Source: Nocardioides sp. (GTDB taxonomy: Bacteria; Actinomycetota; Actinomycetes; Propionibacteriales; Nocardioidaceae). Taken from it: a stretch of 64,000 nucleotides of DNA. Of the stretch, positions 45,082 through 61,289 are shown in pieces (position 1 is the first letter of the stretch; each line of letters opens with the position of its first letter). A program made the translations under genes and the position numbers. The notes under the pieces are model-generated. The model ran no database searches. It was not told where the DNA came from and was given only the letters and a program-made list of their open reading frames with translations. The stretch is taken from contig NZ_JASBRN010000044.1 in assembly GCF_030149505.1 (NCBI RefSeq), forward strand, positions 1 to 64,000, given 5' to 3'.

Positions 45082-46458
45082 TCAGCTCGTCAGCTTGCGT
45101 ACGAGCTTCTTGTTCGCGAACTCGTCGAGCCCGAACCGGCCGAGCTCGCGCCCGACCCCCGAGGCCTTGACCCCACCGAAGGGCAGGTCGGGAGCACTCT
45201 TGATCGTGGTGTTGATGCCCACCATCCCGACGTCGAGCTGGTCGGCGACCTGACGCGCGTGGTCCTCGTCTCCGCCGAAGACCGCGGCACCGAGGCCGAA
45301 CGGCGAGTCGTTCGCGACCGCGACCGCCTCCTCAGCGGACCTCACCCGGTAGAGAACGGCGACCGGACCGAACAGCTCTTCCTGGTAGGCACGCATCGTC
45401 GTGTCCACGCCGGAGAGCACCGTCGCCGGGTAGTACGCGCCCGGTCCGTCTGGTGCGGATCCGCCAAGATGCACGGTCGCGCCCTTGGCCACGGCGTCCT
45501 GGACCTGCCCCTCGAGGTCGGCGCGCCCGGCCACGGAAGACATCGGACCGAGCTTGGTCTCGTCCCGGGCGGGGTCGCCGAGCTGCCAGGACGCAGCCTG
45601 ACGGAGGAACTCCTCCAGGAACGAGTCCCAGACGGCGTCCTCGACGATGATGCGCTTGGACGACGTGCAGGCCTGTCCGGCGTTGGCGAAGCGGCCCGTC
45701 GCGGCCTCCCGGGCTGCAGCGGCGGGGTCCGCGTCGGCCAGCACGATGAAGGGGTCGGAGCCGCCGAGCTCGAGCACGCACTTTTTCATGTGCGCTCCGG
45801 CCACGCTGCCCACCGCCTGGCCGGCTCGCTCGGAACCGGTCAGCGAGACGCCCTGGACGAACGGGTGAGCGATCATCCGCGCGACCTGATCGTTGGTGGC
45901 GAAGACGTTCTGGTACACGCCCGCCGGCGCGCCGGCGGCCTCGACGAGGTCGGCGATCGCGAGCGCCTGCTGCGGGCAGTTGCTCGCGTGCTTCAGCAGG
46001 ATCGTGTTGCCGAGGAGCAGGTTCGGCGCGACGAAGCGGGCCACCTGGTAGTGGGGGTAGTTCCAAGGCATGACGCCGACGAGCGCGCCGATGGCCTCGG
46101 TGCGCACGACCGCGCTGCCCTGGCCGGCGATGTCCAGCTGCTCCTCCTCGAGGAACTCCGGTCCCTTCGCGGCGTAATACTCGAAGATGGAGGCAGCCAG
46201 GGCGACCTCTCCCCTCGCCTGGGCGACGGGCTTGCCCATCTCCGTGGTCATCAGTGCAGCGAGCTCCTCGGAGCGCTCGCGGTAGGTGTCCGCGATCCGC
46301 TGCAGCAGGCCGGTGCGCTCCGCGACGTCGGCACGCCGCCAGGCGCCGTACGCCGTGTGGGCTGCCTCCACAGCCGAGTCCACCTCGGCATCGGTCGCGC
46401 TGTCGAACTCCTTCACCACCACACCGGTGGCAGGGTCGGTCGAGACGTACTTGCTCAC
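45082..46458 (-). CDS. chnE: NAD(P)-dependent aldehyde dehydrogenase (6-oxohexanoate dehydrogenase candidate)
   Basis: This 458-residue enzyme of the succinate-semialdehyde/ALDH superfamily has its catalytic Cys C264 in GQACTSSKR. The general base Glu is in VLELGGSDPF, and NAD-binding motifs are in MPWNYPHYQV and SLTGSERAGQAVG. It would oxidise an aldehyde acid, by context 6-oxohexanoate to adipate, the last step of the cyclohexanol-type pathway. The GTG start at 46458 overlaps the alcohol dehydrogenase stop (GTGA), so the two act in sequence. The length is slightly short for the family (458 versus 475-490). The chnE assignment rests on neighbours more than on sequence. Confidence 0.8.
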   Translation of the reverse strand: MSKYVSTDPATGVVVKEFDSATDAEVDSAVEAAHTAYGAWRRADVAERTGLLQRIADTYRERSEELAALMTTEMGKPVAQARGEVALAASIFEYYAAKGPEFLEEEQLDIAGQGSAVVRTEAIGALVGVMPWNYPHYQVARFVAPNLLLGNTILLKHASNCPQQALAIADLVEAAGAPAGVYQNVFATNDQVARMIAHPFVQGVSLTGSERAGQAVGSVAGAHMKKCVLELGGSDPFIVLADADPAAAAREAATGRFANAGQACTSSKRIIVEDAVWDSFLEEFLRQAASWQLGDPARDETKLGPMSSVAGRADLEGQVQDAVAKGATVHLGGSAPDGPGAYYPATVLSGVDTTMRAYQEELFGPVAVLYRVRSAEEAVAVANDSPFGLGAAVFGGDEDHARQVADQLDVGMVGINTTIKSAPDLPFGGVKASGVGRELGRFGLDEFANKKLVRKLTS

Positions 46459-47525
46459 TTCTCCGCTCCCTTCAGGACGATGCGGCCGGTGACGCCACCG
46501 GCGGCGAGCCGGTCCAGCGAGACCGTCACGCCAGCGAGGTCGAGCGGCGCGTCGTGGACCGGGATGCGCGGGATGTCGCCCCGCTTGGCCAGCTCGACGA
46601 CCTCGTGGAGCTCGGGGAGGGTTCCGACGAAGCTCCCCTGGATGGTGATCATCTTGAGCGCCAACAGGGCGGTGGGGATGGTCATCTCGCCTCCGAAGAG
46701 ACCGACCTGCACCATGTGGCCTCCCTTGGCGAGGGCCTCGAAGGCGACGGGCGCGGTGTGGTCGTTGTTGACGAAGTCGATCACGGCGGGCACCGGGCCA
46801 CCCGTCGTCGCCAGCAGCTTCGCGGCCACGTCGTCGCCCTCGGCCGTCACCGTGTGAGAGGCGCCGAGCTCCTGCGCGGCTGCGAGGTTGGCGGGCGAGG
46901 TGTCCACGGCGCAGATGGCGCGGTGGCCCAGGGCGCTCAGGGTCGCCACGGCCGTCAGGCCTACTCCCCCGACCCCGATCACCACGATCGGCGCGTCGGC
47001 AGGGAGCGGCAGCACCTTGCGCGCGGCGCTGTAGGCGGTCAGCCCGGAGCAGGCCATCGTGGCGGCCCAACTGAGGTCGAGGCCCTCGATGTCCACGAGG
47101 TAGCGGGGGTGCGGCACGAGCACCTGCTCGGCGTAGCCGCCGGCTCGGGCCACACCGATGTTGCGGCCCCTGGGACAGGCGTTCTCCCGGCCGTCCAGGC
47201 AGGGCGGACACTCACCGCAACCCACCCAGGGATAGACCAGCCGGGTGCTGCCCACCTCGACGTCCTGGACGTCAGGACCGGCAGCGATCACAACGCCCAC
47301 GACCTCGTGGCCCATGACCAGGGGGTACGGCACACCGCGGTCGGTGAGGCGCATCTGGCCGCGCCGGCCCAGGTCGTAGTAGCCCGCCCGGAGGTGGGTG
47401 TCGGTGTGGCACACCCCGGACCGGACCACCTCCAGCACCACCTCGGTTCCCGTAGGCGCGGGCGTCGGGAGCTCGATCTCGGTGAGGTCTGTGGTGGTTG
47501 CCTCGGGTACGGCGAATGCGCGCAT
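46455..47525 (-). CDS. chnD: Zinc alcohol dehydrogenase (6-hydroxyhexanoate dehydrogenase candidate)
   Basis: This 356-residue medium-chain zinc ADH has catalytic zinc ligands C39 (SGVCHTD) and H73 (MGHE). The structural zinc cysteines are C103, C106, C109, C117 (VGCGECPPCLDGRENAC), and the NAD fold is VIGVGGVGL. Segments such as CHTDTHLRAGYYDLG and VPHPRYLVDIEGLD resemble ChnD-type 6-hydroxyhexanoate dehydrogenases as I remember them. In context it oxidises the omega-hydroxyacid released from the lactone. It is upstream of and coupled to the aldehyde dehydrogenase. A terminator separates it from the monooxygenase gene, so it may have its own promoter in the 98-bp gap. Confidence 0.85.
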   Translation of the reverse strand: MRAFAVPEATTTDLTEIELPTPAPTGTEVVLEVVRSGVCHTDTHLRAGYYDLGRRGQMRLTDRGVPYPLVMGHEVVGVVIAAGPDVQDVEVGSTRLVYPWVGCGECPPCLDGRENACPRGRNIGVARAGGYAEQVLVPHPRYLVDIEGLDLSWAATMACSGLTAYSAARKVLPLPADAPIVVIGVGGVGLTAVATLSALGHRAICAVDTSPANLAAAQELGASHTVTAEGDDVAAKLLATTGGPVPAVIDFVNNDHTAPVAFEALAKGGHMVQVGLFGGEMTIPTALLALKMITIQGSFVGTLPELHEVVELAKRGDIPRIPVHDAPLDLAGVTVSLDRLAAGGVTGRIVLKGAEK

Positions 47526-47623: not shown

Positions 47624-49276
47624 TCAGGCGAGTGCTGGCTGGACGGCGGGGGTGAACTCGAACCCCTTGAAGCCGGCGTCCTCGACCTCGTCGAGCTGGG
47701 CGCGGTAGTTGGCCAGCCCGCCGATGTAGAACATGACGGTCTTGGTCTTGCCGGGCACGTTGGCGCCGAAGATCCAGGAGTCGACCTTCGGGAACAGGGT
47801 CATGTCGGCGATGGTCTGGCAGGTCTCGGTCCAGGCCTGCTCGGCCTCGGCGGACGGCTCGACTGCGGCGTCACGCTCCTGCGCCTCGGCGACGAGCTTG
47901 CCGATCCACTCGACCTGGGTCTCGATGCTCGGCGGAAGGTTCGTGAACGGACCGTTGGGACCCAGGATCATGAACATGTTGGGGAAGCCGTGGGTGGTGA
48001 TCCCGAGGTAGCTGGTCGGAGCGTCCGCCCAGGCCTCGTTGATCGTCCGGCCCTCGCGTCCCCGGAGGTCCATCGCCATGTAGTTGCCGTCGACGGCGTC
48101 GAACCCGGTGGCGAGGATCAGCACGTCGAGCTCGTGGAGCTTGCCGTCCGCCGTGCGCACGCCCTCGGGCACGATCTCGACGATCGGGTGGGTCTTGAGG
48201 TCGGCGACGGAGACGTTCTCGCGGTTGAAGGTCTCGTAGTAGTGGTTCGCGCACAGGGGGCGACGGGCGTAGAGGTCCGTCGGCGTGAGGATGCGCGCCT
48301 TCTCCGGGTCCTTGACGATCTCCTTGATCTTCGACCGGATGAAGGACGCCGCGGCCTCGTTGGCCTCGGGGTCGGTCGCGATGTCGCAGAACGTGCCGAA
48401 CATGAAGCGGAAGCCGCCGCCGATGTCCCAGTTCTCCTGGAACACACGCTGCCGCTCTTCCTCCGAGACGCTCATCGCGGGCACGGCGCTCTCCTCGAAA
48501 CCGAAGGCCACCACCGAGCTGCGCACCTGGTCCCAGATCCCGTCGAAGTCGCCCTTGATGGCGGCGACCTCCTCGGGGGTCATCGGCCGGTCACCCGCAG
48601 GCACGCTGTACTGCGGAGTGCGCATGAAGACCGTCAGGTGTTCGACCTCGGGTGCGACCGCCGAGATCACCTGCTGGCCGGTGGACCCGTTGCCGATCAC
48701 GCCGACTCGCTTGCCGGCGAACTCGTGCTCGTCGGGCCAGGCGCCGGTGTGGATGATGTCGCCGGCGAAGGTCTCGATGCCGGGGATGTTGGGCATGTTG
48801 ATCTTCGAGAGCAGGCCCAGCGCCGTGACGACGTACGTCGCCGTGACCGTCTCGCCATGCTCGGTGGTGACCGTCCACCGGTTGGTCGCCTCGTCGAACA
48901 CTGCCGCGGCGATCCCGGTCTCGAGCTGGATGTCCTTGGCCAGGTCGAAACGCTCCACGACGTGCTCGAGGTAGGCCAGGATGTCGGCCTGCTTGAGGTA
49001 GCGCGTGCTCCAGTCGTAGTCCTGCAGCAGGTCCTTGTCGAAGGAGTAGCGGTAGACGAAGCCCTCGGTGTCGGAGAGGGCGCCCGGGTAGCGGTTCCAG
49101 TACCAGGTGCCGCCGACGCCGCCCGCGCGGTCGTAGGCACGCACCGAGAGGCCGAGCTCGTTGCGCAGCTTGTGCAGCATGTAGATGCCGCCGAAGCCGG
49201 CGCCGATGACGATCGCGTCGTAGTCGACAGGAGCGGTGGCGTCCGGGCCGGGCCCGGTCGTGGTCAGGGTGGTCAT
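47624..49276 (-). CDS. chnB: Baeyer-Villiger monooxygenase, cyclohexanone monooxygenase type
   Basis: This 550-residue FAD/NADPH enzyme inserts oxygen next to a ketone carbonyl, turning cyclic ketones into lactones. The FAD fold is GAGFGG (25-30), the NADPH fold is GNGSTG (195-200) and the type I BVMO fingerprint F-x-G-x3-H-x3-W-P is FAGDIIHTGAWP (170-181). Long stretches agree with Acinetobacter cyclohexanone monooxygenase as recalled (DAIVIGAGFGG, TWYWNRYPGALSDTE, GGGFRFMFGTF, LGPNGPFTNLPPSIE, SWIFGANVPGK). It is closer to that enzyme than to phenylacetone monooxygenase. It follows the lactone hydrolase gene by 40 bp in one transcription unit. Confidence 0.92.
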   Translation of the reverse strand: MTTLTTTGPGPDATAPVDYDAIVIGAGFGGIYMLHKLRNELGLSVRAYDRAGGVGGTWYWNRYPGALSDTEGFVYRYSFDKDLLQDYDWSTRYLKQADILAYLEHVVERFDLAKDIQLETGIAAAVFDEATNRWTVTTEHGETVTATYVVTALGLLSKINMPNIPGIETFAGDIIHTGAWPDEHEFAGKRVGVIGNGSTGQQVISAVAPEVEHLTVFMRTPQYSVPAGDRPMTPEEVAAIKGDFDGIWDQVRSSVVAFGFEESAVPAMSVSEEERQRVFQENWDIGGGFRFMFGTFCDIATDPEANEAAASFIRSKIKEIVKDPEKARILTPTDLYARRPLCANHYYETFNRENVSVADLKTHPIVEIVPEGVRTADGKLHELDVLILATGFDAVDGNYMAMDLRGREGRTINEAWADAPTSYLGITTHGFPNMFMILGPNGPFTNLPPSIETQVEWIGKLVAEAQERDAAVEPSAEAEQAWTETCQTIADMTLFPKVDSWIFGANVPGKTKTVMFYIGGLANYRAQLDEVEDAGFKGFEFTPAVQPALA

Positions 49277-49316: not shown

Positions 49317-50231
49317 TCAGCCGGCGTACCACTTCGCGATGGCGGCGATCTGGTCGTCGGCGGCAGCGGTGCGGCCGGCGTTGAACGGGAAGACGTGCTG
49401 CTGGCCGTCGACGACGGAAAGGGTCACGTCGACCCCTGCGGCGGTGGCCAGCTCGTCGAGGCGCGTGGCGTTGTCGAGCAGCGACTCGTCGCCGCCGGCG
49501 GTGATGTAGAGCCGCGGGAAGCCGACGTAGTCGCCGTAGAGCGGGTTGGCCAGCGGCGCCGTGGGGCTGGTCTGGTCGCCGAGGACACCGGCGATCATGC
49601 CCTCGAGGAGCCCGACAGTGATGAGCGCGTCGGTGGCGTCGTTGGTCACCAGCGTCTCGCCCTTGTTCTCCATGTCGAGCCAGGGCGACAGCGCGATGAC
49701 CGCACCCGGCAGCGGCTTGCCCTGCTGCTTGAGGGACAGCGCCGTGGCGACAGCGAGGTTGCCACCGGCCGAGTCGCCGATGGTGGTGACGTCCTCCGGC
49801 GCGACACCGCTCTCGACCAGCGCGTCGAAGACCGCGACTGCGTCCTCCAGGCTGGCGGGGTGCGGGTGCTCCGGAGCGCGTCGGTAGTCCAGCACGAAGG
49901 AGGTGACGCCGAGGGCCTTGGCGAAGTGGCCCGCCAGCTTGCGGTGGCTGGATGCCGAGCCGACCGCAAAGCCGCCGCCGTGGGTGTAGAGCAGGACCTT
50001 GGACTCGTCGGCACCGGCCGGGTGGACCCAGATGCCGGGCACGCCGCCGACGACGCCCTCGGAGTACGTCACGTCGGTCGGCTCGGCGGTGGGCTGGTGC
50101 CACTCGTCGAAGATGCTGCGGAACAGGCGGATCGTCAGGTTCTCGGTGGTGGCCAGGATGTCCGACCAGTCGGCGTAGAGCGCCTTGAGGGGATCCTGCT
50201 CGACTCCGGCGACGGGCTGCTGATCACTCAT
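49317..50231 (-). CDS. chnC: HSL-family alpha/beta hydrolase (lactone hydrolase candidate)
   Basis: This 304-residue hormone-sensitive-lipase-type esterase has oxyanion motif HGGGF (84-88) and nucleophile elbow GDSAGG (S154). The acid and His lie near the C terminus (DELATAAGVDVT and DGQQHVFPF). It lies directly upstream of the cyclohexanone-monooxygenase gene and is expressed from the same promoter. A caprolactone hydrolase (ChnC) giving 6-hydroxyhexanoate is the obvious role. The upstream region carries the 17-bp dyad at 50314-50330 and a -10-like TAGTGT at 50286-50291. Confidence 0.82.
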   Translation of the reverse strand: MSDQQPVAGVEQDPLKALYADWSDILATTENLTIRLFRSIFDEWHQPTAEPTDVTYSEGVVGGVPGIWVHPAGADESKVLLYTHGGGFAVGSASSHRKLAGHFAKALGVTSFVLDYRRAPEHPHPASLEDAVAVFDALVESGVAPEDVTTIGDSAGGNLAVATALSLKQQGKPLPGAVIALSPWLDMENKGETLVTNDATDALITVGLLEGMIAGVLGDQTSPTAPLANPLYGDYVGFPRLYITAGGDESLLDNATRLDELATAAGVDVTLSVVDGQQHVFPFNAGRTAAADDQIAAIAKWYAG

Positions 50232-50285: not shown

Positions 50286-50330
50286 ACACTAGGTTTGGCG
50301 CGACGACACAACCTGTACCGATGTGGAACA
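50286..50330 (-). promoter_or_regulatory. Activator-type promoter of the lactone hydrolase/monooxygenase unit
   Basis: The minus strand reads dyad TGTTCC-N5-GGTACA (50330-50314), then 22 nt, then -10-like TAGTGT (50291-50286). The -35 position (AGGTTG) is poor and abuts the dyad, as expected for an activator-dependent promoter. The same layout with the same 22-nt spacing occurs before the PHA synthase unit. Confidence 0.7.
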
Positions 50331-50390
50331 CCTCACTCGACACCTCGCCGAGGGACGCTGGCGTGACACCACGACCTGAGGAGAAGGCCC

Positions 50391-51311
50391 ATGACTGACC
50401 AGGTGGAGCGTGCGACCGTCGGCGACGTCGACCTCGCCCACGAGTCCTTCGGAGACCCTGCCGACCCGCCGTTGCTGCTGGTCATGGGGCTGGCGACCCA
50501 GATGCTCGGCTGGGACGAGCGGTTCTGCGCCCGACTCGCGGACGAGGGGTTCCACGTCGTCCGCTTCGACAACCGCGACGTGGGGCTCTCCACGCACCTC
50601 GACGCGGCTGGTGTCCCCGACATCGGAGCGCTGATGACAGGCGACCCCGCTGCCGCTCCCCCGCCGTACACGCTGGTCGACATGTCCCGCGACGTCGAGG
50701 GGCTGCTCGACGCGCTGGGCCTGGAGTCCGCACACGTGGTGGGAGCCTCGATGGGCGGGATGATCGCCCAGCAGCTCGCCATCGCACGCCCCGGCCGCGT
50801 CCGCAGCCTCACCTCGATCATGTCGACCCCGTCACGCGAACTCGGTGCGCCGCGACCCGAGGCGATGGCGGCCCTGTTCCTGCCACCACCGACCGACGAG
50901 GACACAGCCGCCCAGCGCGCACTGGAGGTCTACCGCGTCATCGGCTCCCCGGCCTACCCACTCGACGAGACCCGTCTCGCCGACGTCGCGCGCCGCGCGT
51001 ACGCCCGCGGCTACGACGCCGCCGGCGTGGCCCGGCAGTACGCCGCGATCCTGGCGTCACCCGATCGGCGGCCGGGACTTCGCGAGCTCGACGTGCCGAC
51101 CCTCGTCATCCACGGCGAGGACGACCCGCTGGTCCAGGTGGCCGGGGGCCTGGCCACCGCGGACGCGGTCCCGGGCGCCCGGCTGGTCGTGGTGCCTGGG
51201 ATGGGGCACAACCTCCCCGAGCCGCTCTGGCCGCAGCTGGTCGACGACGTCGCCGCCCACGCCCGCGCGGCCGAGGCGGCCCGGGCTGCCGTCAACCCGC
51301 CAGGGCGGTGA
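50391..51311 (+). CDS. Alpha/beta hydrolase
   Basis: This 306-residue alpha/beta hydrolase is of the proline-iminopeptidase/AclJ-like type common in polyketide and catabolic clusters. The nucleophile elbow is GASMGG, the acid is in HGEDDPLV and the His in GMGHNLPEP. RFDNRDVGLST after strand 4 is typical of this subgroup. It has a GAGGAGAAGG ribosome site. It is divergent from the lactone hydrolase and shares the intergenic region holding the 17-bp dyad, so it probably belongs to the regulon. It may be a second esterase for lactone or oligoester substrates. Its 3' end overlaps the convergent ligase gene by 20 bp. Confidence 0.8.
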   Translation: MTDQVERATVGDVDLAHESFGDPADPPLLLVMGLATQMLGWDERFCARLADEGFHVVRFDNRDVGLSTHLDAAGVPDIGALMTGDPAAAPPPYTLVDMSRDVEGLLDALGLESAHVVGASMGGMIAQQLAIARPGRVRSLTSIMSTPSRELGAPRPEAMAALFLPPPTDEDTAAQRALEVYRVIGSPAYPLDETRLADVARRAYARGYDAAGVARQYAAILASPDRRPGLRELDVPTLVIHGEDDPLVQVAGGLATADAVPGARLVVVPGMGHNLPEPLWPQLVDDVAAHARAAEAARAAVNPPGR

Positions 51312-52791
51312 CGGCCTGCGGGACGTCGATCTCGCGCTTGAGGATCTTGCCGGTCGGCCCCTTGGGGAGCGCGTCGACGACCCAGACGTGGCGCGCGTAC
51401 TTGTACGCCGCCACGCGAGCCCTGACGTGCTCGCGGAGCTCCTCGGCGGTCGCGTGGCGGCCCGGACGCAGGGTGACCGCGGCGGCGACCTCCTCGCCCA
51501 GCGTGGGGTGGGGAACGCCGATGACGGCGGCCTCGAGCACCGCCGGGTGCGCGTAGAGAACCTCCTCGATCTCGCGGGGGTAGATGTTGAACCCTCCGCG
51601 GATCACCAGGTCCTTCTTGCGGTCGACGACGTAGTAGAAGCCGTCCTCGTCGCACCGGGCCAGGTCGCCGCTGTAGAACCACCCGTCGACGATGGCCGCT
51701 GCGGTGGCCCCAGGTCGGTCCCAGTACCCCTTCATCACGTTGTGGCCGCGGATGGCGATCTCACCCACCTCGCCAGGGCCCACCTCGACGCCGTGCCGGT
51801 CGACGAGCTTGAGCTCGACGCCGTCGAGCGGGACGCCGATCGAACCCACCCTCGAACGACCCGGGCGGTTGAACGTCGCGGTGGGCGAGGTCTCCGACAG
51901 GCCGTAGCCCTCGAGGACCGGTGTACCGAGGTCCTGCTCGACCCCGCACAGCACCTCCAGCGGGAGTGACGCACCGCCCGAGACGCACACCCGCAGGCTG
52001 GACGTGTCCGAGGCCGCGGCGCCTGCCTCCAGCATGGTGACGTACATCGTGGGGACGCCGGCGAACACGGTCGCCCGGTCCTGTGCGACGAGCTCGAGCA
52101 CGGCACCGGCGTCGAAACGGGGCACCAGGCTCACGCTGGCGCCGACGGCGATCGAGGCGTTGAGCACGTTGCTCTGGCCGAAGGCGTGGAACAGCGGCAG
52201 GCAGCCCATGACGACGTCGTGCTCGGTCAGCTCGACGAGCCCGCCGAAGCCCAGCGCGTTGAGGCGCAGGTTCGCGTGCGTCAGCTGTGCGCCCTTCGGC
52301 GTACCCGTCGTGCCGGAGGTGTAGAGGATCACGGCGGTGTCGTCGTCGGAGCGCGCCACCGGCCCCGGCTCGGGCACCAGCGCCCGGACCGTCCGCAGCA
52401 GGTCGTCGTCGGCCTCCACGACCTCCGTGCCGACCGCCGCAGCGGCGAGCCGGGCTTCCGGAGCGGCGTGGGGTGACACGAGCACCAGCCGCGCACCCGA
52501 GTCGCGCAGCTGGTGCTCCACCTCGGGTGCCTTCAGCAGCGGGTTCATCGGGACGACGACGGCCCCGGCGCGGAGCACGGCGTAGTAGAGGACGGGGAAC
52601 TCCAGCACGTTGTGCAGCATGAGGCCAACGCGGTCCCCCGGGCCGACACCGCGAGCGCGCAGGAGCCCGGCGGCTCGGGCGCTCAGGTCGTCGAGCTCGG
52701 CGTGGCTGAGGGCTGTGGCGTCGAGGCGGACCGCGGCCCGCCGTCCGTGCCGGGCGGCAGACGCGGTGAGGATGCTGGCGAGGTTGGTCAT
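51292..52791 (-). CDS. Acyl-CoA ligase (AMP-forming)
   Basis: This 499-residue adenylate-forming ligase has P-loop YTSGTTGTPKGA. The core motif is EGYGLSETSP, the hinge is YVVDRKKDLVIRGGFNIYP, and the C-terminal acylation lysine region is PKGPTGKILKREI. It activates a carboxylic acid to its CoA thioester. It overlaps the PHA synthase gene by 4 bp (ATGA), so the thioester may be intended for the synthase (hydroxyacyl-CoA). Alternatively it may feed beta-oxidation (adipyl- or other acyl-CoA). The substrate is unproven. ATG 52791 is the fold start (MTNLASIL). Confidence 0.88.
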   Translation of the reverse strand: MTNLASILTASAARHGRRAAVRLDATALSHAELDDLSARAAGLLRARGVGPGDRVGLMLHNVLEFPVLYYAVLRAGAVVVPMNPLLKAPEVEHQLRDSGARLVLVSPHAAPEARLAAAAVGTEVVEADDDLLRTVRALVPEPGPVARSDDDTAVILYTSGTTGTPKGAQLTHANLRLNALGFGGLVELTEHDVVMGCLPLFHAFGQSNVLNASIAVGASVSLVPRFDAGAVLELVAQDRATVFAGVPTMYVTMLEAGAAASDTSSLRVCVSGGASLPLEVLCGVEQDLGTPVLEGYGLSETSPTATFNRPGRSRVGSIGVPLDGVELKLVDRHGVEVGPGEVGEIAIRGHNVMKGYWDRPGATAAAIVDGWFYSGDLARCDEDGFYYVVDRKKDLVIRGGFNIYPREIEEVLYAHPAVLEAAVIGVPHPTLGEEVAAAVTLRPGRHATAEELREHVRARVAAYKYARHVWVVDALPKGPTGKILKREIDVPQAVTALAG

Positions 52792-53882
52792 CTCGGACCA
52801 CCCTTCTGGAGCAGGAAGTCGATGATCGTGGGGATGGTGGTCCTCGCGGCGGTGCGCCCCACCAGCAGCCCGACGTGCCCGCCGTCGAGCCGCAGCTCGT
52901 GCTTGTCCGTCGATCCGACGAGGTCGATGAGCGGCGACGCCGAGGCTTCCGGGACGATGTGGTCCTGGTTGGCGAGCACGGTGAGGAACGGCACCGTGAT
53001 GTCGGACAGGTGCACCCGGTCCCCGCCGATGACGAGGCGGTCGTTGACGATCGCGTTGTCGTCGAGCATGTCCGCCAGCTGGCGCGCGACGCCGCCGGGC
53101 AGGGGCACGTGGTCGGTGGCCCATCCGATGAGCGCCTGGTAGGACGCCACGTAGTCGTCGTTCCACAGCCCCTGCCAGAGGTCGACGTACTGCGTGACTG
53201 CCGTTGTCGGCTTGAGGGACTTGAACGCCTGGTGAATGACGTGGGGAGGGACGTTGCCGTCGGGGTCGAGCAGCGACGTCACGTCCAGCCCGCCCCTGGT
53301 CGTGAGGTTGCTGAAGGGGCCCAGGTGCTCGAGGTCGACCGGCGTGGTCAGCACGGTGAGGCTGCGCAGGGGCGCATTACGGTGGTGTGCGGCGTAGAGC
53401 AGGGCAAGCACGCTGCCGAAGCAGTAGCCCAGCATGTCGACCTCCTCTGCTCCGGAGACCTCTCGGACCCGCTGGACGGCGGCCGGCAGGTAGTCGTCGA
53501 CGTAGTCCTCGAGCCGGTTGGCGGCGTCGCGCTCGTCCGGGACGCCCCAGTCGAGCAGGTAGACGTCGAAGCCGGCGGCCAGGAGGTGCTCGACGAAGCT
53601 GTTGCCCGGCCGGAGGTCGAGGACGTAGCTGCGGGAGAACAGGCTGAAGACGAGCAGCAGCGGCGGTCGGGCGCTCACGTCCTCGTCGCCGTTCCCGTCG
53701 GCCCGGTAGCGCCAGAGCTCGACGCGGCCGTGCCGCCACACCACGTCCTTCGGCGTCTGGCCGACGGCGGGTCGTGCTGCCCCGGTGGCCAGCCTGACAC
53801 CGTTGCGTGCGCGCTGACCTGCTCGTCCGACCTGTTGCCTCACGAGGGGGCCCAAGCCTGCCTGCGTCTGCGTGGTGGTCAC
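52788..53882 (-). CDS. phaC: Polyhydroxyalkanoate synthase, class III PhaC-like
   Basis: This 364-residue alpha/beta-fold polymerase joins hydroxyacyl-CoA units into polyester. The lipase-like box carries Cys instead of Ser (GYCFGS, C154). The acid is D307 (NQDHIVP) and the base H336 (DGGHVGLLVG). These are exactly five residues downstream of the triad of Allochromatium PhaC (C149, D302, H331) as I recall it. LLDWGVPDERD and TPVDLEHLG are also PhaC-typical. The length fits class III, which needs a PhaE partner, and the preceding small gene may be that. The GTG start overlaps that gene's stop. Confidence 0.87.
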   Translation of the reverse strand: MTTTQTQAGLGPLVRQQVGRAGQRARNGVRLATGAARPAVGQTPKDVVWRHGRVELWRYRADGNGDEDVSARPPLLLVFSLFSRSYVLDLRPGNSFVEHLLAAGFDVYLLDWGVPDERDAANRLEDYVDDYLPAAVQRVREVSGAEEVDMLGYCFGSVLALLYAAHHRNAPLRSLTVLTTPVDLEHLGPFSNLTTRGGLDVTSLLDPDGNVPPHVIHQAFKSLKPTTAVTQYVDLWQGLWNDDYVASYQALIGWATDHVPLPGGVARQLADMLDDNAIVNDRLVIGGDRVHLSDITVPFLTVLANQDHIVPEASASPLIDLVGSTDKHELRLDGGHVGLLVGRTAARTTIPTIIDFLLQKGGPR

Positions 53883-54184
53883 TGCCCGCTGCCCTCGCGG
53901 TCCGTCCGGGACTGCTCCAGCTGCAGCGACAGGCGTCGCAGGTCGCGGTCGAGCGCGCCGATCTGCCTCCGAAGCTTCTGGACGTCGCTACGCGCCGGCA
54001 GGTTCACCAGGTGCCACCCGGTGGTGGCGACGCTGTCCAGTACGCGTCCGATCCTGCGCCGCACCCCGAGCGCGGCGGCGGTCACCTGCGCGTACTCCCC
54101 GCTGCGCACCCAGCGCTCTGCGTGCGGTGCCACGGCCCGTTCCGCGACGTCGTACGTCCTTCGCCAGGATGGGGTGCTCGTCAT
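53879..54184 (-). CDS. Small PhaE-like subunit candidate
   Basis: This 101-residue helical protein has a C-terminal part, NLPARSDVQKLRRQIGALD followed by RDLRRLSLQLEQ. It resembles the conserved tail of PhaE/PhaR and phasin-like proteins (L-P-x-R-S/R-E/D-V then a coiled coil). The N-terminal half lacks the long PhaE domain: PhaE is usually 300 residues or more. It is the first gene of the unit and overlaps phaC by 4 bp, so a 1:1 complex is likely. Transcription probably starts from the dyad-controlled promoter at 54222-54266. The assignment is inference from motif and position. Confidence 0.65.
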   Translation of the reverse strand: MTSTPSWRRTYDVAERAVAPHAERWVRSGEYAQVTAAALGVRRRIGRVLDSVATTGWHLVNLPARSDVQKLRRQIGALDRDLRRLSLQLEQSRTDREGSGQ

Positions 54185-54221
54185 GGGTGTTCCTTCGTGG
54201 TCGTCCCGGCCGGTCAGGGCG

Positions 54222-54266
54222 AACCTAGGTCTGCCTCCTCACGCCGACCTGTACCGAAGTGGAACA
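54222..54266 (-). promoter_or_regulatory. Activator-type promoter of the phaE-like/phaC/ligase unit
   Basis: The minus strand reads dyad TGTTCC-N5-GGTACA (54266-54250), 22 nt, then TAGGTT (54227-54222). The -35 position holds AGGTCG. The dyad differs from the one at 50314-50330 in a single spacer base, and the flanks (ACC before, CC after on the plus strand) are also shared. The site may serve the divergent regulator gene as well. Confidence 0.7.
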
Positions 54267-54391: not shown

Positions 54392-56173
54392 GTGAGCCCC
54401 GCCGACGACCCGAGTGCTGTGGCCGGCTCACGACGCCCGCGGGCCGACGACGAGCTCGTCCGCTCGGCGAAGGAGACGCTGATCTCCCTCGGCCTGCTGC
54501 ACAGCGCGGACACCCAGCCGGCCCGGGTCTCCGACGAGATCGACCGCAGCTGGCGTCGCTCCATCAGCGCCGGGGCCACCCACACCACTGGCGCCTTCCA
54601 GTTCGTCAACGAGTACGACGAGGACAGCGAGCTCTCTCGTGCTGCGCGACCCGTCCTCGACCGGCTCGCCGAGACCTTGCAGGACATGGGCACGGCGATC
54701 TTCCTGGCGGACCGGTCGGGGCAGATCGTGGCCCGGCGGGTCGCCGGCCACACCGAGCAGGTCCGCTTCGACAGCGCGAACGCCGCGGAGGGCTTCGACT
54801 TCTCCGAGGAGAGCATCGGCACCAACGGGCTCGGCACCCCGATCCAGGAAGGTGCCTCGGTCTTCGTGCGCGGGGCCGAGCACTTCAACGAGGCCCTGGA
54901 GAGTCTCGCATGCGCGGGTGTGGGGATCCGGCACCCGGTCACCGGTCGGGTGATCGGCTCCCTGTCGCTGGCAGCCCCCGCGGACGCGGCCGAGATGATG
55001 ATGCTGGCGATGACCCGGGAGGGTGCCAAGCAGATCGTGGACAACCTGAGCGCCACCGTCAGCAGGCGTGAGCTCACGCTCGGGCGGAGCTACCAGCGCC
55101 ACCGGGCCAAGGGACCCGTGATCGTGCTCAACAGCGACACCGTGATGACCAACGTCACCGGACTGTCGTTCCTCAACGTCGAGATGCACGCACGGTTGTG
55201 GGACTCCCTGCTCGCGAAGGACTGGGGCCGAGGACCCCACGAGCTGGAGCTCGACCTCCAGTCGCTGCATGCCCGGGTGCTCGCCCACCGCCTCGACGAC
55301 ACCGACGACGCGGCCTTCGCCGTCGAGATCCTCGACCGCAAGCAGGCCCGCCCTACCGGCAGGCCGAGCCGCTCTGCCCCGGTCCGCGACGCGTTCGTCG
55401 TCAACCTGCAGCGCACCGCTGCTCGCTCGGCAAGTGCCATCACCGTGACCGGTCCGGGCGGGTCCGGCAAGTGGTACGTCGTGCGCGAGTGGCTCCGCAC
55501 CGAGGGCCACGAGTCCCCGCTCGTCCTCGACGGAGGCGCGCTCGTCGGTCAGGACGCGTGGCGGGGCGACGCAAGGGACGCACTTGCGTCCGGCGGGGTC
55601 GTGGTGCTGCGCCGGTTCGAGGACCTCGACGCCGGCCAGGTCAGCGCCGTTAAGGCACTCGCGGACGACGCTGCGCCAGGACGACTGGTCATCACCGCGG
55701 ATCTCGACAGGTGCTCGGAGTCCGCAGTGCGGATCCTGTCCCAGGTCGCGGTGGGGATCGACGTCCCTCCGCTCGCCAGCAGGAGCCAGGAGTTGCCCAC
55801 CATCGTGCAGGCACTCCTGGCGGAGATCGATCCGCAGCACCGACCGGTGCTCTCCGCCTCGACCATGCAGTCACTGATGCGCTGGGACTGGCCCGGCAAC
55901 GTCGCCGAGCTCCGCCAGGTGCTCCTGGGCCTCGCCGCCGAGCTGCCCGGCAAGTCGGTCAGCCCCTACCACCTGCCCGAGCGGATGTGGGAGACCGCCA
56001 ACCGACGCCCGCTCACCCGGATCGAGGCGGCGGAGCGCAGCGAGATCGTCGCCGCGCTGCGCCAGGTCGACGGCAACCGGTCGAAGGCGGCCACCCTGCT
56101 CGGCATCGGTCGTACGACGCTCTACCGCAAGCTGACCGCCCTCGGGATCGACGACGAGGCGCTGCTCTCCTGA
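54392..56173 (+). CDS. GAF/degenerate AAA+/Fis transcriptional activator (AcoR/MimR type)
   Basis: This 593-residue regulator has an N-terminal region with FDSANAAEGFDFSEESIGTNG (GAF-linked, AcoR-like, residues ~60-225). A central NTPase-like domain has a poor P-loop (GPGGSGKW, about 354) and lacks the GAFTGA loop needed to contact sigma-54. A C-terminal Fis-type helix-turn-helix follows (GNRSKAATLLGIGRTTLYRKL). Such forms in actinobacteria activate ordinary promoters and control alkane/ketone monooxygenase genes (for example MimR). It lies between the ketone and PHA genes and is the natural candidate to bind the two 17-bp dyads, with the ketone or lactone as effector. Confidence 0.85.
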   Translation: MSPADDPSAVAGSRRPRADDELVRSAKETLISLGLLHSADTQPARVSDEIDRSWRRSISAGATHTTGAFQFVNEYDEDSELSRAARPVLDRLAETLQDMGTAIFLADRSGQIVARRVAGHTEQVRFDSANAAEGFDFSEESIGTNGLGTPIQEGASVFVRGAEHFNEALESLACAGVGIRHPVTGRVIGSLSLAAPADAAEMMMLAMTREGAKQIVDNLSATVSRRELTLGRSYQRHRAKGPVIVLNSDTVMTNVTGLSFLNVEMHARLWDSLLAKDWGRGPHELELDLQSLHARVLAHRLDDTDDAAFAVEILDRKQARPTGRPSRSAPVRDAFVVNLQRTAARSASAITVTGPGGSGKWYVVREWLRTEGHESPLVLDGGALVGQDAWRGDARDALASGGVVVLRRFEDLDAGQVSAVKALADDAAPGRLVITADLDRCSESAVRILSQVAVGIDVPPLASRSQELPTIVQALLAEIDPQHRPVLSASTMQSLMRWDWPGNVAELRQVLLGLAAELPGKSVSPYHLPERMWETANRRPLTRIEAAERSEIVAALRQVDGNRSKAATLLGIGRTTLYRKLTALGIDDEALLS

Positions 56174-56182
56174 CCTCGCCCC

Positions 56183-57007
56183 TCAGGCGCGGTGCCCTCG
56201 CCCGTCCGCTTCGAGGAAGTCGGTCACCGCCCGCGCGCTCGACTCCGGCCGGCTGAGCAGGAACATGTGGCCTCCGTGCGGGACCACCTCCAGCGTCGAC
56301 CGCGGAGCCAGCAGGTGCATCAGGCGCGCGTTGTGGACCGAGAAGACCGGGTCGTCGTCACCGTGCATGATCAGGGTCCGCTGCGCCAGCAGCGGCAGGA
56401 ACGGCACGCTCGTCCAGCCTACGAGCGCGAGCAGCTGACGTCGGTAGGCGCCCGCATCGACCTCGCGGACCAGGCCCAGTCGTTTCAGCAGCTCGGGGTC
56501 GTCGACGAAGTCGCCTCCGTAGACCCGCCGGACCAGCACCTCCCGGTTCGCCTCGCTGCGGTCCGGTCGCCAGAAGCTCGCGACCGTGGCTGGCGCGACC
56601 GGCACGCTCAGGAATCCCGGACTGGTGCTCGCCAGCACCACCCGCCGTACGCGCCGCGGATGCGTCAGCGCCAGCTGCTGGGCAGTGACACCACCCCAGG
56701 ACAGACCCAGCACGTCGAAGCGCTGGACGCCCAGCCGGTCCATCACCCGGCTGACGAAGCGCGCGTAGCCCATGACGGTGGGCCACCGGCCGAGATGCTC
56801 GGGCTGCACGTCGAAGGCGATCGTGGTCCGGGGGATCTGCTCGCGGAACTCCCCCCACTTCGCCTGGTCCAGGCCGACGCCGTGACACATGAGCAGGGGC
56901 AGGCCCCGGCTCCCCACCCCGCCTGTCTTCCGCACGCTCACCACCACCGCGTGCTCGCCCACCCTGACCTCGCGCGCGTCCTCGTCTACCAGCTGCACTT
57001 CGAGCAC
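56183..57007 (-). CDS. Alpha/beta hydrolase, PhaZ-like polyester depolymerase candidate
   Basis: This 274-residue hydrolase has nucleophile elbow GLSWGG (S103), acid in HGDDDPVFS and His in PHGGHMFLLS. The G-x-S-W-G-G elbow with a following AQQLALTHP resembles intracellular medium-chain PHA depolymerases (PhaZ). Placed beside phasin and synthase genes it would release hydroxyacids from the granule. The frame is open to a GTG at 57061, but that codon lies in a 13-bp hairpin, so GTG 57007 with GAGGAAGAG upstream is preferred. The assignment as depolymerase is inference; a simple esterase is possible. Confidence 0.7.
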   Translation of the reverse strand: MLEVQLVDEDAREVRVGEHAVVVSVRKTGGVGSRGLPLLMCHGVGLDQAKWGEFREQIPRTTIAFDVQPEHLGRWPTVMGYARFVSRVMDRLGVQRFDVLGLSWGGVTAQQLALTHPRRVRRVVLASTSPGFLSVPVAPATVASFWRPDRSEANREVLVRRVYGGDFVDDPELLKRLGLVREVDAGAYRRQLLALVGWTSVPFLPLLAQRTLIMHGDDDPVFSVHNARLMHLLAPRSTLEVVPHGGHMFLLSRPESSARAVTDFLEADGRGHRA

Positions 57008-57031
57008 CTCTTCCTCGTCCCGACATGACGC

Positions 57032-57068
57032 GGTCGAGGTGGCGTCCCCCGTGGGCGCCACCTCGACC
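57032..57068 (-). terminator. Terminator after the phasin gene
   Basis: GGTCGAGGTGGCG (57032-57044) pairs with CGCCACCTCGACC (57056-57068), perfect 13-bp stem with 11-nt loop. It lies 15 nt past the phasin stop and 24 nt before the hydrolase start. It should limit read-through and keep phasin in excess. Confidence 0.65.
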
Positions 57069-57083
57069 GGATGCCGCGTGCTG

Positions 57084-57401
57084 CTACTTCTTCTTGGCGG
57101 CGGATGCGGTCTCGCCCGCGGGCTTCGGCGCCGACTGCGCGGCGGCGACCAGCTGGTGCCCGAACTCGCGCTGGTTGGCGATCACCTTCTCGAAGGCGTC
57201 GTAGACGCCGTCGACCAGCGCCGCGGGCTGCGGGAACCGCTCGGACCAGGCGGCCGCGTCGGGCTGCGAGCTCTTCGGGGTCAGCGACTGGGCGGTCTGC
57301 GTCCAGAATCCGACCGAGCTGACCGCCGCCGCCTGGGCGGTGCGGACGTTGGCGAGCACCTGGTCGGTGACCTTCTGGACGTACTCCTGTGCCTGTGTCA
57401 T
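57084..57401 (-). CDS. Phasin-like granule protein
   Basis: This 105-residue amphipathic helical protein has QEYVQKVTDQVLANVRTAQAA, then LVDGVYDAFEKVIANQREFG, and a Lys/Ala-rich tail (ASAAKKK). Size and pattern fit the small phasins (PhaP) that coat PHA granules, the tail resembling DNA- or polymer-binding Lys tails. ATG 57401 has AGAGGAG upstream. A good promoter is present: TTGACG (57466-57471) and TAAAGT (57442-57447), within repeats likely bound by the divergent XRE regulator. Assignment is by composition and context. Confidence 0.7.
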   Translation of the reverse strand: MTQAQEYVQKVTDQVLANVRTAQAAAVSSVGFWTQTAQSLTPKSSQPDAAAWSERFPQPAALVDGVYDAFEKVIANQREFGHQLVAAAQSAPKPAGETASAAKKK

Positions 57402-57437
57402 CTGTTTGCTCCTCTGGGTGTGGGTGACGACGACCTT

Positions 57438-57500
57438 GCAAACTTTATGCAGCACTTGCTCGATGCGTCAAGTACCTCGCAGATGCTTGGTACTGTTTGC
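57438..57500. promoter_or_regulatory. Divergent promoter/operator region with nested inverted repeats
   Basis: Outer arms GCAAAC (57438-57443) and GTTTGC (57495-57500) enclose inner arms AGTACC (57471-57476) and GGTACT (57489-57494). The phasin promoter (-35 TTGACG, -10 TAAAGT) overlaps the left outer arm. The XRE gene -10 TACTGT (57491-57496) overlaps the right arms. This fits autoregulation of the XRE gene and repression of phasin. Confidence 0.6.
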
Positions 57501-57502
57501 GC

Positions 57503-57898
57503 ATGGCCGACCCGTGGACTCCGCAGCTGCAGGCGCTGGGCAGCTACATCAAGACCCAGCGGCAGCTGGCCGACCTGTCCCTGCGGCAGATGGCCGAGCT
57601 CGCCGAGGTCTCCAACCCGTACCTCAGCCAGATCGAGCGCGGCATGCACCAACCGTCCGTACGAGTGCTCAGATCGATCGCCAAGGCGCTCAACATCTCG
57701 GCCGAGTCCCTGCTCACACAGGCCGGTCTGCTCGACGCAGCCACCGGCGGGACCGAGGGCTCGGCCTCCGGCGTCGAGGCCGCGATCAAGGCCGACCCGC
57801 GCCTGACCCAGCAGGCCAAGCAGACGCTCCTCGCGGTCTACCGCACCCTGCTGCCGGCCGACCGCGATCCGTCGGGCGCCGACGGCTCGTCCAGCTGA
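57503..57898 (+). CDS. XRE-family regulator (phasin repressor candidate)
   Basis: This 131-residue protein has an N-terminal Cro/CI-type helix-turn-helix (GSYIKTQRQLADLSLRQMAE, NPYLSQIERGMHQPSVRVLR; residues ~15-70). A C-terminal helical part may sense polymer or phasin. Homologous regulators sit next to phasin genes in actinobacteria. ATG 57503 is 6 nt after TACTGT, leaderless. The gene is divergent from phasin and overlaps the convergent LysR gene by 61 bp. Binding to PHA granules as an inducer mechanism is known for PhaR proteins of other families and only inferred here. Confidence 0.8.
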   Translation: MADPWTPQLQALGSYIKTQRQLADLSLRQMAELAEVSNPYLSQIERGMHQPSVRVLRSIAKALNISAESLLTQAGLLDAATGGTEGSASGVEAAIKADPRLTQQAKQTLLAVYRTLLPADRDPSGADGSSS

Positions 57899-58791
57899 TC
57901 GATCCCGAGCAGGGAGTCCCGCACCGCGCGCACGGCGGGACTGCGCTCGTCGGCCCGCCAGGCCGCCCGCAGGTGCACGTCGGGAAGTCCCTCGGCCTCG
58001 CTCGCCGCGATGGGGACGAAGGTGACGTGTGGATCCCCCTGGTTGGCCGCGACCGATGCCAAGGTGAGAAGGCAGCCCACCTCGGCGCTGACGAGGGCGA
58101 GCGCGGTCTGCGTGTCAGGCGCCACCTGCGCGACGCGGGGCAGGAAGCGCTGCGCCTGGGCCAGTCGTCGTAGCCGGTCCGTCAGCACCGACCCCTCGTC
58201 GACAGGCAGGGAGACCAGCCGCTCGTCGAGCAGCTCGGCGAACTGGACGGCGTCGACGCCGGCGAGCCGGTGAGTGGCAGGGACCGCGAGCACCAGGTGG
58301 TCCTCCGTCACCACCCGGGCGTCGATGCCCTCCGGGACGACGTCCCAGCGGCCCATCGCGACGTCGGTCTCGCGCGTGGCCAGCTTCTGGATCGCCGCCA
58401 GCGCGAAGTTCTGGCTGGAGAGCTCGAGCTCGATGCCCGGTCGCTCCGAGCGCACCCGGCGGGCGAGGGTGGCGATGAGGGGATGGGTCGAGACGCCGGC
58501 GAACGCGACCCGCACGAGACCGACCTCCCCGCGCTCGGCCGACCGCGCGGCTTCGGTGGCGCGCCGCAGCGCCTCCATCACTTCGCGGGCGGGCTCGACC
58601 ATCGCCTGTCCGGCCGGGGTCAGCGCCACCGAGCGGGTGTTGCGGTCGAACAGCGTCGTGCCCAGCTCGCGCTCGAGCTGCTTGATGGTGCGCGTCAGGG
58701 GCGGCTGGGCCACGTGGAGACGCTCGGCAGCCTTGCGGAAGTGCAGCTCCTCGGCGACGGCGAGGAACGCGCGCAGCTGGGCGACATCCAT
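57838..58791 (-). CDS. LysR-family transcriptional regulator
   Basis: This 317-residue LTTR has a winged helix-turn-helix at the N terminus (AQLRAFLAVAEELHFRKAAE, HVAQPPLTRTIKQLE) and a substrate-binding-type effector domain (about 90-290). It is divergent from the acyl-CoA dehydrogenase operon, the standard arrangement for LTTR control of the adjacent operon. A dyad ATCA-N9-TGAT lies at 58803-58819, directly in the shared gap. The effector might be an acyl-CoA, adipate or similar. The gene overlaps the convergent XRE gene by 61 bp. Confidence 0.88.
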   Translation of the reverse strand: MDVAQLRAFLAVAEELHFRKAAERLHVAQPPLTRTIKQLERELGTTLFDRNTRSVALTPAGQAMVEPAREVMEALRRATEAARSAERGEVGLVRVAFAGVSTHPLIATLARRVRSERPGIELELSSQNFALAAIQKLATRETDVAMGRWDVVPEGIDARVVTEDHLVLAVPATHRLAGVDAVQFAELLDERLVSLPVDEGSVLTDRLRRLAQAQRFLPRVAQVAPDTQTALALVSAEVGCLLTLASVAANQGDPHVTFVPIAASEAEGLPDVHLRAAWRADERSPAVRAVRDSLLGIDQLDEPSAPDGSRSAGSRVR

Positions 58792-58802
58792 GAGATGAAG
58801 GT

Positions 58803-58819
58803 ATCACCGAATGAATGAT
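58803..58819. promoter_or_regulatory. LysR-type binding dyad
   Basis: ATCA-N9-TGAT sits in the 71-bp divergent gap, 7 bp upstream of the -35 of the acyl-CoA dehydrogenase promoter. It is a candidate site for the adjacent LysR regulator. Confidence 0.45.
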
Positions 58820-58825
58820 CAGGTA

Positions 58826-58855
58826 TTGGACGCGCAACAATACGACGCGCATAGT
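58826..58855 (+). promoter_or_regulatory. Promoter of the beta-oxidation operon
   Basis: -35 TTGGAC (58826-58831), 18-bp spacer and -10 CATAGT (58850-58855). The ATG at 58863 follows the -10 by 7 nt, so the transcript would be leaderless. Confidence 0.5.
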
Positions 58856-58862
58856 CGTGGGC

Positions 58863-60038
58863 ATGTACACCGGCAACCCAGAGGTCCCCGACGACGTCTT
58901 CGCCGACGTCCTCAAGCAGATCACCGAGTTCGTCCACGAGCGCGTCGTACCGCGCGAGCTCGAGATCATGTCCACCGACGCGATCCCCGACGACCTGCGT
59001 CGCCAGGCCGCCGAGATGGGCCTGTTCGGCTACGCCATCCCGGAGCAGTGGGGCGGGCTCGGCCTCGACCTCGTCCAGGACGTCGAGGTCGCGATGGCCC
59101 TGGGCTACACGTCCCTGTCCTTCCGCTCGATGTTCGGCACCAACAACGGCATCGCCGGCCAGGTGCTCGTCGGGTTCGGCACCGAGGAGCAGCAGGAGCG
59201 GTGGCTGCCCGGCATCGCGTCGGGTGAGATCGTCGCCTCCTTCGCCCTCACCGAGGTCGGTGCCGGGTCCAACCCCGCCGGCCTGCGCACGAGCGCCACG
59301 CCCGACGGCGACGGCTGGGTGATCGACGGCACCAAGCAGTTCATCACCAACGCCACCGAGGCCGGCCTGTTCGTCGTGTTCGCCCGCACCGCGCCGGCGA
59401 CCGAGAAGAGCACCGGCGTCGCGGTCTTCCTCGTCCCCGCGGACACGCCCGGCGTCGAGGTCGGCGTCAAGGACGCCAAGATGGGCCAGGAGGGCTCCCG
59501 CACGGCGGAGGTCAGCTTCGACCAGGTGCGTGTGGGCGCCGACGCGCTCGTCGGAGGCGACGGTGACGTCGGCTACCGCGCGGCGATGACGTCGCTCGCC
59601 CGAGGGCGCATCCACATCGCAGCCCTGGCCGTGGGTACAGCGCAGCGCGCGCTCGACGAGTCGGTGTCGTACGCCGCCAGCGCAACCCAGGGCGGCACGC
59701 CGATCGGGGACTTCCAGCTGGTGCAGGCGATGCTGGCCGACCAGCAGGCCGGAGTCCTGGCGGGCCGCGGGATGGTCCGCGAGGCCGCCCGCGCCTACGT
59801 GACGGGCGAGGACCGGCGCATCGCCCCCTCGGCCGCCAAGCTGTTCTGCACCGAGATGGTGGGCAAGGTCGCCGACCTCGCCGTGCAGGTGCACGGCGGC
59901 TCGGGCTACATGCGGGAGGTTCCCGTCGAGCGCATCTACCGAGACGTGCGACTCCTGCGCCTGTACGAAGGCACGAGCGAGATCCAGAAGCTCATCATCG
60001 GAGGCGGCCTCCTCCGCGCAGCTCGAAAGGCCTCCTGA
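58863..60038 (+). CDS. Acyl-CoA dehydrogenase
   Basis: This 391-residue FAD enzyme introduces the alpha-beta double bond into an acyl-CoA. Typical blocks are SFALTEVGAGSNPAGLRT (FAD/substrate loop), TKQFITNA, the C-terminal VQVHGGSGYMREVPVERIYRD and LYEGTSEIQ. The catalytic Glu region is near EGTSEI or on helix G. It is the first gene of a beta-oxidation operon; by context the substrate may be adipyl-CoA. A frame start 16 codons earlier exists, but ATG 58863 follows a CAT-type -10 by 7 nt. Its stop overlaps the next ATG (TGATG). Confidence 0.9.
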   Translation: MYTGNPEVPDDVFADVLKQITEFVHERVVPRELEIMSTDAIPDDLRRQAAEMGLFGYAIPEQWGGLGLDLVQDVEVAMALGYTSLSFRSMFGTNNGIAGQVLVGFGTEEQQERWLPGIASGEIVASFALTEVGAGSNPAGLRTSATPDGDGWVIDGTKQFITNATEAGLFVVFARTAPATEKSTGVAVFLVPADTPGVEVGVKDAKMGQEGSRTAEVSFDQVRVGADALVGGDGDVGYRAAMTSLARGRIHIAALAVGTAQRALDESVSYAASATQGGTPIGDFQLVQAMLADQQAGVLAGRGMVREAARAYVTGEDRRIAPSAAKLFCTEMVGKVADLAVQVHGGSGYMREVPVERIYRDVRLLRLYEGTSEIQKLIIGGGLLRAARKAS

Positions 60039-61246: not shown

Positions 61247-61289
61247 CCCGGCCCCTCCCCCGAGCTCAACCCGCCTAGGAGACAACCCC

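Follow-up and report, generated by a model that had tools for sequence, protein, structure and literature searches.

DhaR, the regulator of dhaKLM in Escherichia coli, activates transcription in a sigma-70-dependent manner. The enzyme under its control is dihydroxyacetone kinase, and by the titles of PDB entries 4lry and 4lrz it binds DhaK or DhaL. Here we describe a regulator of similar build, encoded at 54392-56173 on the plus strand of a 64,000-nucleotide stretch of a Nocardioides sp. genome (GCF_030149505.1, contig NZ_JASBRN010000044.1, positions 1 to 64,000; hereafter the window), together with two 17-bp dyads of the general form TGTTCC-N5-GGAACA that we predict to be its operators, one in front of a ketone-breakdown operon and the other in front of a polyester-type operon. 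DhaR resembles the window regulator in having a GAF domain, an AAA lid and a Fis-type helix-turn-helix (HTH) and in lacking GAFTGA, and it is the best fold match; unlike the window regulator, DhaR scores as PF00158 and has a PAS match. The E. coli dhaK-dhaR intergenic region contains TGTTCCATATTGAAACT and TGTTTCATAGTGAAACA, the top two words of this dyad form in the 3.9 kb examined, and none of 2000 shuffles of the region held two such words, suggesting that this type of dyad may predate the actinobacterial systems.

Two actinobacterial systems are also comparable. As in the window, the prmABCD oxygenase operon of Rhodococcus sp. BCP1 is divergent from a Fis-family regulator gene, beside which a palindrome overlapping the -35 region has been noted; the oxygenase and the pathway differ from those in the window, and the accessible part of that source gives neither a consensus nor a comparable regulon (PMC4428276). 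Mycolicibacterium chubuense NBB4 likewise has AcoR-like regulators beside monooxygenase clusters, for which the accessible part of the source names no operator and states that experimental evidence is lacking (PMC8784404). We found no published description of the present operator in the literature searched, whose coverage leaves out most subscription journals, so an earlier one may be in print. The regulator and operator belong to the DhaR/AcoR-like kind, and it is the extension of the regulon that is unusual.

Read on the minus strand, dyad 1 (TGTTCCACATCGGTACA, 50314-50330) and dyad 2 (TGTTCCACTTCGGTACA, 54250-54266) both take the form TGTTCC-N5-GGTACA and differ by a single spacer base. A first-pass annotation, made from the letters alone, had called the dyad identical, which holds apart from that one base; both copies are imperfect, with one position mismatched between the half-sites. 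Putative -10 boxes lie on the same strand at exactly 22 nt from each dyad, TAGTGT at 50286-50291 for dyad 1, where the geometry is kept in relatives, and TAGGTT at 54222-54227 for dyad 2. The hexamers AGGTTG (dyad 1) and AGGTCG (dyad 2) start at the final dyad base, 17 nt from the TAG boxes. Positions, words, the 22-nt distance and the placement of these hexamers against the dyads are all as the first-pass annotation gave them, and the occurrence of two dyads with equal spacing is confirmed. In the window genome (4,166,386 bases, 88 contigs), TGTACC-N5-GGAACA occurs at two places, both in the window, and the control, the same pattern read backwards, occurs nowhere. The genome-wide motif scan proposed at first pass has thus been run, and the exact form is unique to these two sites, whereas relaxed forms are unremarkable. 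The exact pair is real and unusual, yet a single genome says no more than this, and the remaining case is comparative.

Within the genus, a close relative of the regulator (83-100% identity) is encoded by three of 147 genomes, the window genome included, and these hold two, two and three palindromic sites; the regulators of the window genome (G000) and of G022 are identical, and the three genomes are not independent. The other 144 genomes, 30 of which have a more distant relative of the regulator, include seven with one palindromic site and none with two or more; 15 of the 147 have a single occurrence of the reversed control. The two corresponding sites of the 83% relative hold the 22-nt distance, to TAGGGT and TAGTGT. 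In a set of 39 relatives, four genomes have the palindrome, two of which, from other families of the order, hold one site each.

A wider sample comprised the best 80 of 368 related loci returned, which were used for all 80-locus counts (L-codes below denote loci and G-codes genomes); neighboring genes were called by tblastn at a minimum of 33% identity and 40% coverage, and dyads were scored as matches out of 12 to TGTTCC-N5-GGAACA. In 44 of the 80 loci, a dyad scoring at least 11/12 lies no more than 500 bp upstream of the regulator, where random windows drawn from those loci predict 0.85, and the effect is specific to a gap of 5 bp: other gaps between 0 and 11 bp give no such site upstream of the regulator, or one in a single case. 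Over the whole loci there are 75 dyads at this threshold, 51 of them upstream of the regulator and 24 elsewhere; for 19 of those 24, the start of a match to a gene of this cluster is at most 500 bp away. Linkage to a monooxygenase (at least 55% identity) accompanies a dyad in 56 of 64 loci, and only one of the 16 loci without such linkage has one. One of the loci with dyads, L120, encodes the crystallized cyclohexanone monooxygenase (CHMO) of Thermocrispum municipale, identical over 541 residues. Two control counts run higher. At a looser threshold of 10/12, gaps of 0 and 1 bp are found in 23 and 21 of the 80 loci, which may reflect overlap with the spacer bases of true sites. A gap of 9 bp gives 30 sites in the 80 loci, an excess attributable to a coding effect because 26 of the 30 fall in one frame within the monooxygenase gene. 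A dyad tied to the monooxygenase alone was considered and rejected, since only five of the 30 monooxygenase loci of the genus have a dyad of at least 11/12: those of the three close relatives, that of G115, which stands beside a distant regulator relative, and that of G153, which is unexplained. Tandem dyads 24-25 bp apart occur upstream of the regulator in L085, L088, L095, L096, L102 and L120; those in the window are single.

Promoter geometry was examined in 61 directed promoters, reduced to 36 distinct ones by a 60% flank-identity rule (of tandem dyads, the one nearest the gene was retained), which face an esterase, a monooxygenase or the small protein described below, and compared with 500 single-base shuffles. 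The form nAnnnT stands at 22-23 nt from the dyad in 33 of the 36 (shuffle mean 2.3, maximum there 9), YAnnnT in 28 (mean 1.2, maximum 5), and TAnnnT, the form given at first pass, in nine (mean 0.39, maximum there 3). A first count on the esterase/monooxygenase side, over 47 distinct flanks, had found six TAnnnT within 45 nt, four at 22 nt and two at 23 nt. By column count, the main conserved features of the 36 promoters are the dyad itself, a preceding G, C residues at the positions immediately following, and the box 21-29 nt away; the Fisher values of this count overstate independence, as L057 and L058 are near-identical, L058 and G130 are apparently the same genome and G000 and G022 share their regulator. 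No conservation of a -35-like hexamer was seen between dyad and box in these 36 promoters, which gives good support to the first-pass view that a consensus -35 box is lacking. A fixed distance from operator to -10 without a -35 box is the layout of a class II activated sigma-70-type promoter, and the 36 promoters show it with the -10 form relaxed after viewing. The 5-bp spacer is asymmetric (AnATC when read in the direction of the catabolic gene), and from the spacer by itself the direction of 30 of the 36 promoters is predicted correctly (leave-one-out), with both window sites predicted toward the minus strand. At the three other zero-mismatch places of a whole-genome TGTNCC-N5-GGNACA scan, no [TC]AnnnT was found at 22-23 nt. 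In L068, L072, L075, L077, L083, L084, L086 and L092, a TTGATAC or TTAATAC word recurs about 25-26 nt from the dyad in the direction of the regulator and may belong to the promoter of the regulator gene itself.

The regulator gene lies on the opposite strand and begins some 125 bp past dyad 2. Its product has GAF, AAA lid and HTH_8 domains in that order (PF01590, PF25601 and PF02954, all over cut-off), and PF00158 was found neither in it nor in nine of nine actinobacterial relatives by a scan that detects E. coli DhaR. NtrC-class sigma-54 activators share the Fis-type HTH and the AAA+ core, of which the window regulator keeps a degenerate remnant: in an alignment with E. coli DhaR and NtrC it retains a Walker A-like GPGGSGKW and has VVLRRFED opposite the LFLDEI of NtrC. 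Unlike that class, the regulator and seven aligned relatives have no GAFTGA stretch, which was found in NtrC, and no recognizable Walker B, the latter as judged by eye on the alignment (a text pattern for Walker B missed NtrC too). A search for sigma-54 (PF04552) gave no match in the window genome and was positive in four of 14 control genomes; any activation by the regulator would consequently use another sigma factor. The regulator is clearly a candidate for a transcription factor of sigma-54-class ancestry that works in a genome where no sigma-54 was found. An AlphaFold2 model built from 27 sequences reached a pLDDT of 75.5 and a pTM of 0.46, and with this moderate-confidence model the top fold match of the N-terminal half is E. 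coli DhaR (4lry_C, E 2.9e-12, TM-score 0.50 by target length). The DhaR entries 4lry and 4lrx come first and sigma-54 activators are among the next. The regulator scores 117 bits against the NCBIfam DhaR equivalog cut-off of 551, indicating that it is related to DhaR but is not DhaR itself.

We think it likely that both dyads are operators of the regulator at 54392-56173, through which it would exert class II activation of the ketone and polyester operons. A dimer of the regulator would bind TGTTCC-N5-GGAACA-type sites that end at the -35 position and, with TAGnnT taken as the -10 box, span roughly -51 to -35; the signal, a ketone or a lactone, is presumably detected by the GAF domain. The bound regulator would recruit RNA polymerase of the sigma-70 type to promoters with a -10 but no -35 box. 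We predict that the dyad 1 promoter drives an esterase, a cyclohexanone-type monooxygenase and alcohol and aldehyde dehydrogenases, and that the dyad 2 promoter, probably a copy of the first, drives a small protein, a polyhydroxyalkanoate (PHA) synthase-like protein and an acyl-CoA ligase; because the dyad 2 promoter adjoins the regulator gene, the regulator may also control itself. The existence of the regulator, its operator and a shared two-unit regulon is strongly supported by the comparison of related loci, while binding, activation, ligand and polymer we infer. The first-pass annotation had spoken of an activator-dependent regulon; its two units and its regulator stand on comparative evidence, and activation is our interpretation of the promoter geometry and of the analogy to DhaR.

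Several observations weigh against this reading. Relaxed patterns are poorly enriched in the window genome: TGTWCC-N5-GGWACA with one mismatch occurs at three places (the two dyads and one more) against five for the reversed control, and TGTNCC-N5-GGNACA with one mismatch at 43 against 26, only a weak enrichment. Candidates for further regulon members from these loose scans were set aside on the same counts, and none is claimed. Eight of the 64 monooxygenase-linked loci have no site of at least 11/12, four of them having a 10/12 site at the matching place and four none; among those without are two members of the genus, G014 and G065, whose regulators are 37-38% and whose monooxygenases are 63-70% identical. 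Many loci have a single dyad between divergent genes, and on the regulator side, where 48 flanks contain eight TAnnnT boxes, seven of the eight stand at 21-23 nt, so the dyad may serve either side or both. The choice of nAnnnT and of 23 nt as an alternative distance was made after the flanks had been viewed, and the structural model of the regulator is only of moderate confidence. The overlap of the dyad with the -35 position is a further such point, as this placement is common for repressors and would suit a regulator that blocks RNA polymerase there until a ketone or lactone releases it; the E. coli annotation of DhaR, moreover, is that of a dual regulator. We nevertheless regard repression as unlikely, given that the 36 distinct promoters have no conserved -35-like hexamer and that the dyad-to--10 distance, which a repressor would not need, is fixed at 22-23 nt in 33 of them.

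Nor does the sequence of a dyad by itself name the protein that binds it, as is apparent from TGTTCC-N5-GGAACA-like words before PadR-family genes in four other members of the genus, which likewise count against the regulator as the binding protein. These look-alikes, of the form TGTWCC-N5-GGWACA, stand just before the genes in L041, L043, L044 and L049:8433; the PadR Pfam model scores above cut-off in three of the four cases and below it in L043. Among the seven stray single sites of the genus, four are before PadR-family genes and three are unexplained. A PadR protein, or the product of one of the nearby LysR (57838-58791) and XRE (57497-57898) genes, might thus use the dyads instead. We hold this to be improbable, since across families the dyad accompanies the GAF/Fis regulator, nearly always with a gap of 5 bp, and is also found in L087, L088 and L091, which have no match to the window LysR or XRE; none of the ten window proteins scanned is a PadR protein, the rest of the window and the genome not having been searched for one. 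That dyad 2 is a nonfunctional leftover of a local duplication could account for the sequence that the two promoters share beyond the dyad, the window being the weakest of three such cases (2/500 shuffles), but we rate it as very improbable because three lineages retain the dyad and its -10 box at the polyester unit, spaced by 22, 22 and 23 nt, despite changes in the intervening bases. An ordinary sigma-54 enhancer-binding protein acting from upstream activating sites would agree with the NtrC-like domain order, and the NtrC site has a 6-N5-6 dyad geometry like that of the present dyads. We reject this explanation, which has hardly any probability left: the sigma-54 search was negative, the regulator has neither PF00158 nor GAFTGA, and the sites are at the promoter.

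The preferred reading, of two operons activated by one regulator, raises the matter of how the regulon grew. Going upstream from the regulator, the first matched gene encodes a divergent esterase or monooxygenase and lies within 1 kb in 47 of the 80 loci, and in 41 of the 47 there is a dyad between it and the regulator gene. The stretches following the two dyads resemble each other within a genome: none of 500 shuffles reaches the observed score in L057 or in L061, and two of 500 do so in the window, where the signal is weak. The simplest reading is that a promoter duplication placed the polyester unit under the control of the ketone regulator. The three lineages that keep the dyad and box at the polyester unit are the window with G022, L057 with L058, and L061.

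The cyclohexanone route runs from cyclohexanone to caprolactone, 6-hydroxyhexanoate, 6-oxohexanoate and adipate, and the four activities encoded behind dyad 1 on the minus strand match it. The gene nearest the dyad (49317-50231) encodes an alpha/beta hydrolase of the HSL type (PF07859, 5.6e-48) that adjoins the monooxygenase in many related loci and is likely a lactone esterase resembling ChnC, the caprolactone hydrolase described, in the accessible part of the source, for cyclohexanone-type routes (PMC9477822). It is followed by a Baeyer-Villiger monooxygenase of the CHMO family (47624-49276; PDB 5m0z, the T. municipale CHMO, 4.7e-265), a zinc alcohol dehydrogenase (46455-47525; PF00107, PF08240) and an aldehyde dehydrogenase (45082-46458; PF00171, 2.2e-137). 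The top PDB matches of the monooxygenase are CHMOs, placing it with these among the type I Baeyer-Villiger enzymes and sharpening the ketone oxidation that had been correctly proposed at first pass. CHMOs are much-used biocatalysts, and for many of those from actinobacteria the comparison predicts a regulator, an operator (TGTTCC-AnATC-GGAACA) and a promoter layout; the gene of the crystallized T. municipale enzyme is among them. Divergent from dyad 1, a profile search of the window proteins identified another alpha/beta hydrolase (50391-51311, plus strand), on whose side of the dyad no [TC]AnnnT box was found at 22-23 nt.

Behind dyad 2, also on the minus strand, the first gene (53879-54184) encodes a 101-aa protein without a family match in Pfam and NCBIfam profile scans. 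Its C-terminus, coiled-coil-like and with a conserved LPxRxDVxxL in an alignment of three sequences, is presumably that of a PHA granule protein or synthase subunit. The next gene (52788-53882) encodes a PHA synthase-like, class III-like protein with GYCFGS, DHIVP and GGH motifs, and the last (51292-52791) an acyl-CoA ligase (PF00501, 6.3e-98, first codon omitted from the scan). The synthase-like protein scores under the cut-offs of the PHA synthase models (TIGR01836, 273 against 365.3 bits; PF07167, 23.1 against 23.7). It aligns with solved PHA synthases (PDB 5hz2, 2.9e-22), its GYCFGS and DHIVP falling on GFCVGG and DHIVP of 5hz2 and the final GH being aligned too; we take these three motifs to have their usual catalytic roles. 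The polyester synthesis named by the first-pass annotation rests on this synthase-like protein, which falls short of the curated thresholds but aligns with known structures.

Matches to the PHA synthase-like gene occur in three of the 80 loci (L057, L058 and L061) and in G022, all from Nocardioidaceae, and in each of these the gene lies between the regulator and the esterase, both ends carrying a dyad and -10 box. A link between ketone and polyester is plausible. More specifically, and doubtfully, the ketone regulon may have been extended by promoter copy to a polyester unit that activates lactone-derived hydroxy acids such as 6-hydroxyhexanoate and stores them as a natural polycaprolactone-like polyester, switched on by ketone. 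If true, ketone breakdown would be joined to polyester storage through a promoter duplication.

Just past the regulator, the region 56183-57898 encodes a PHA depolymerase-like hydrolase (TIGR02240, 116.6 bits, below the cut-off of 250.6) and, by eye, a phasin-like and an XRE-like protein, which places the polyester unit inside a wider PHA-like neighborhood. G130 has a third dyad (L047:10244, G130:C34:356243) before genes that by eye are MFS-, carboxymuconolactone-decarboxylase- and dehydrogenase-like; it was not accepted as marking a further unit, standing 25 nt from TAG and not 22. The window genome keeps the carboxymuconolactone-decarboxylase- and dehydrogenase-like genes just past the window end (C84:65903-67187), without the transporter or the dyad. 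Within the window, 57838-62453 encodes LysR-, acyl-CoA dehydrogenase-, CoA transferase- and thiolase-like proteins (by eye); such genes are often near the regulator in related loci and perhaps serve further diacid breakdown.

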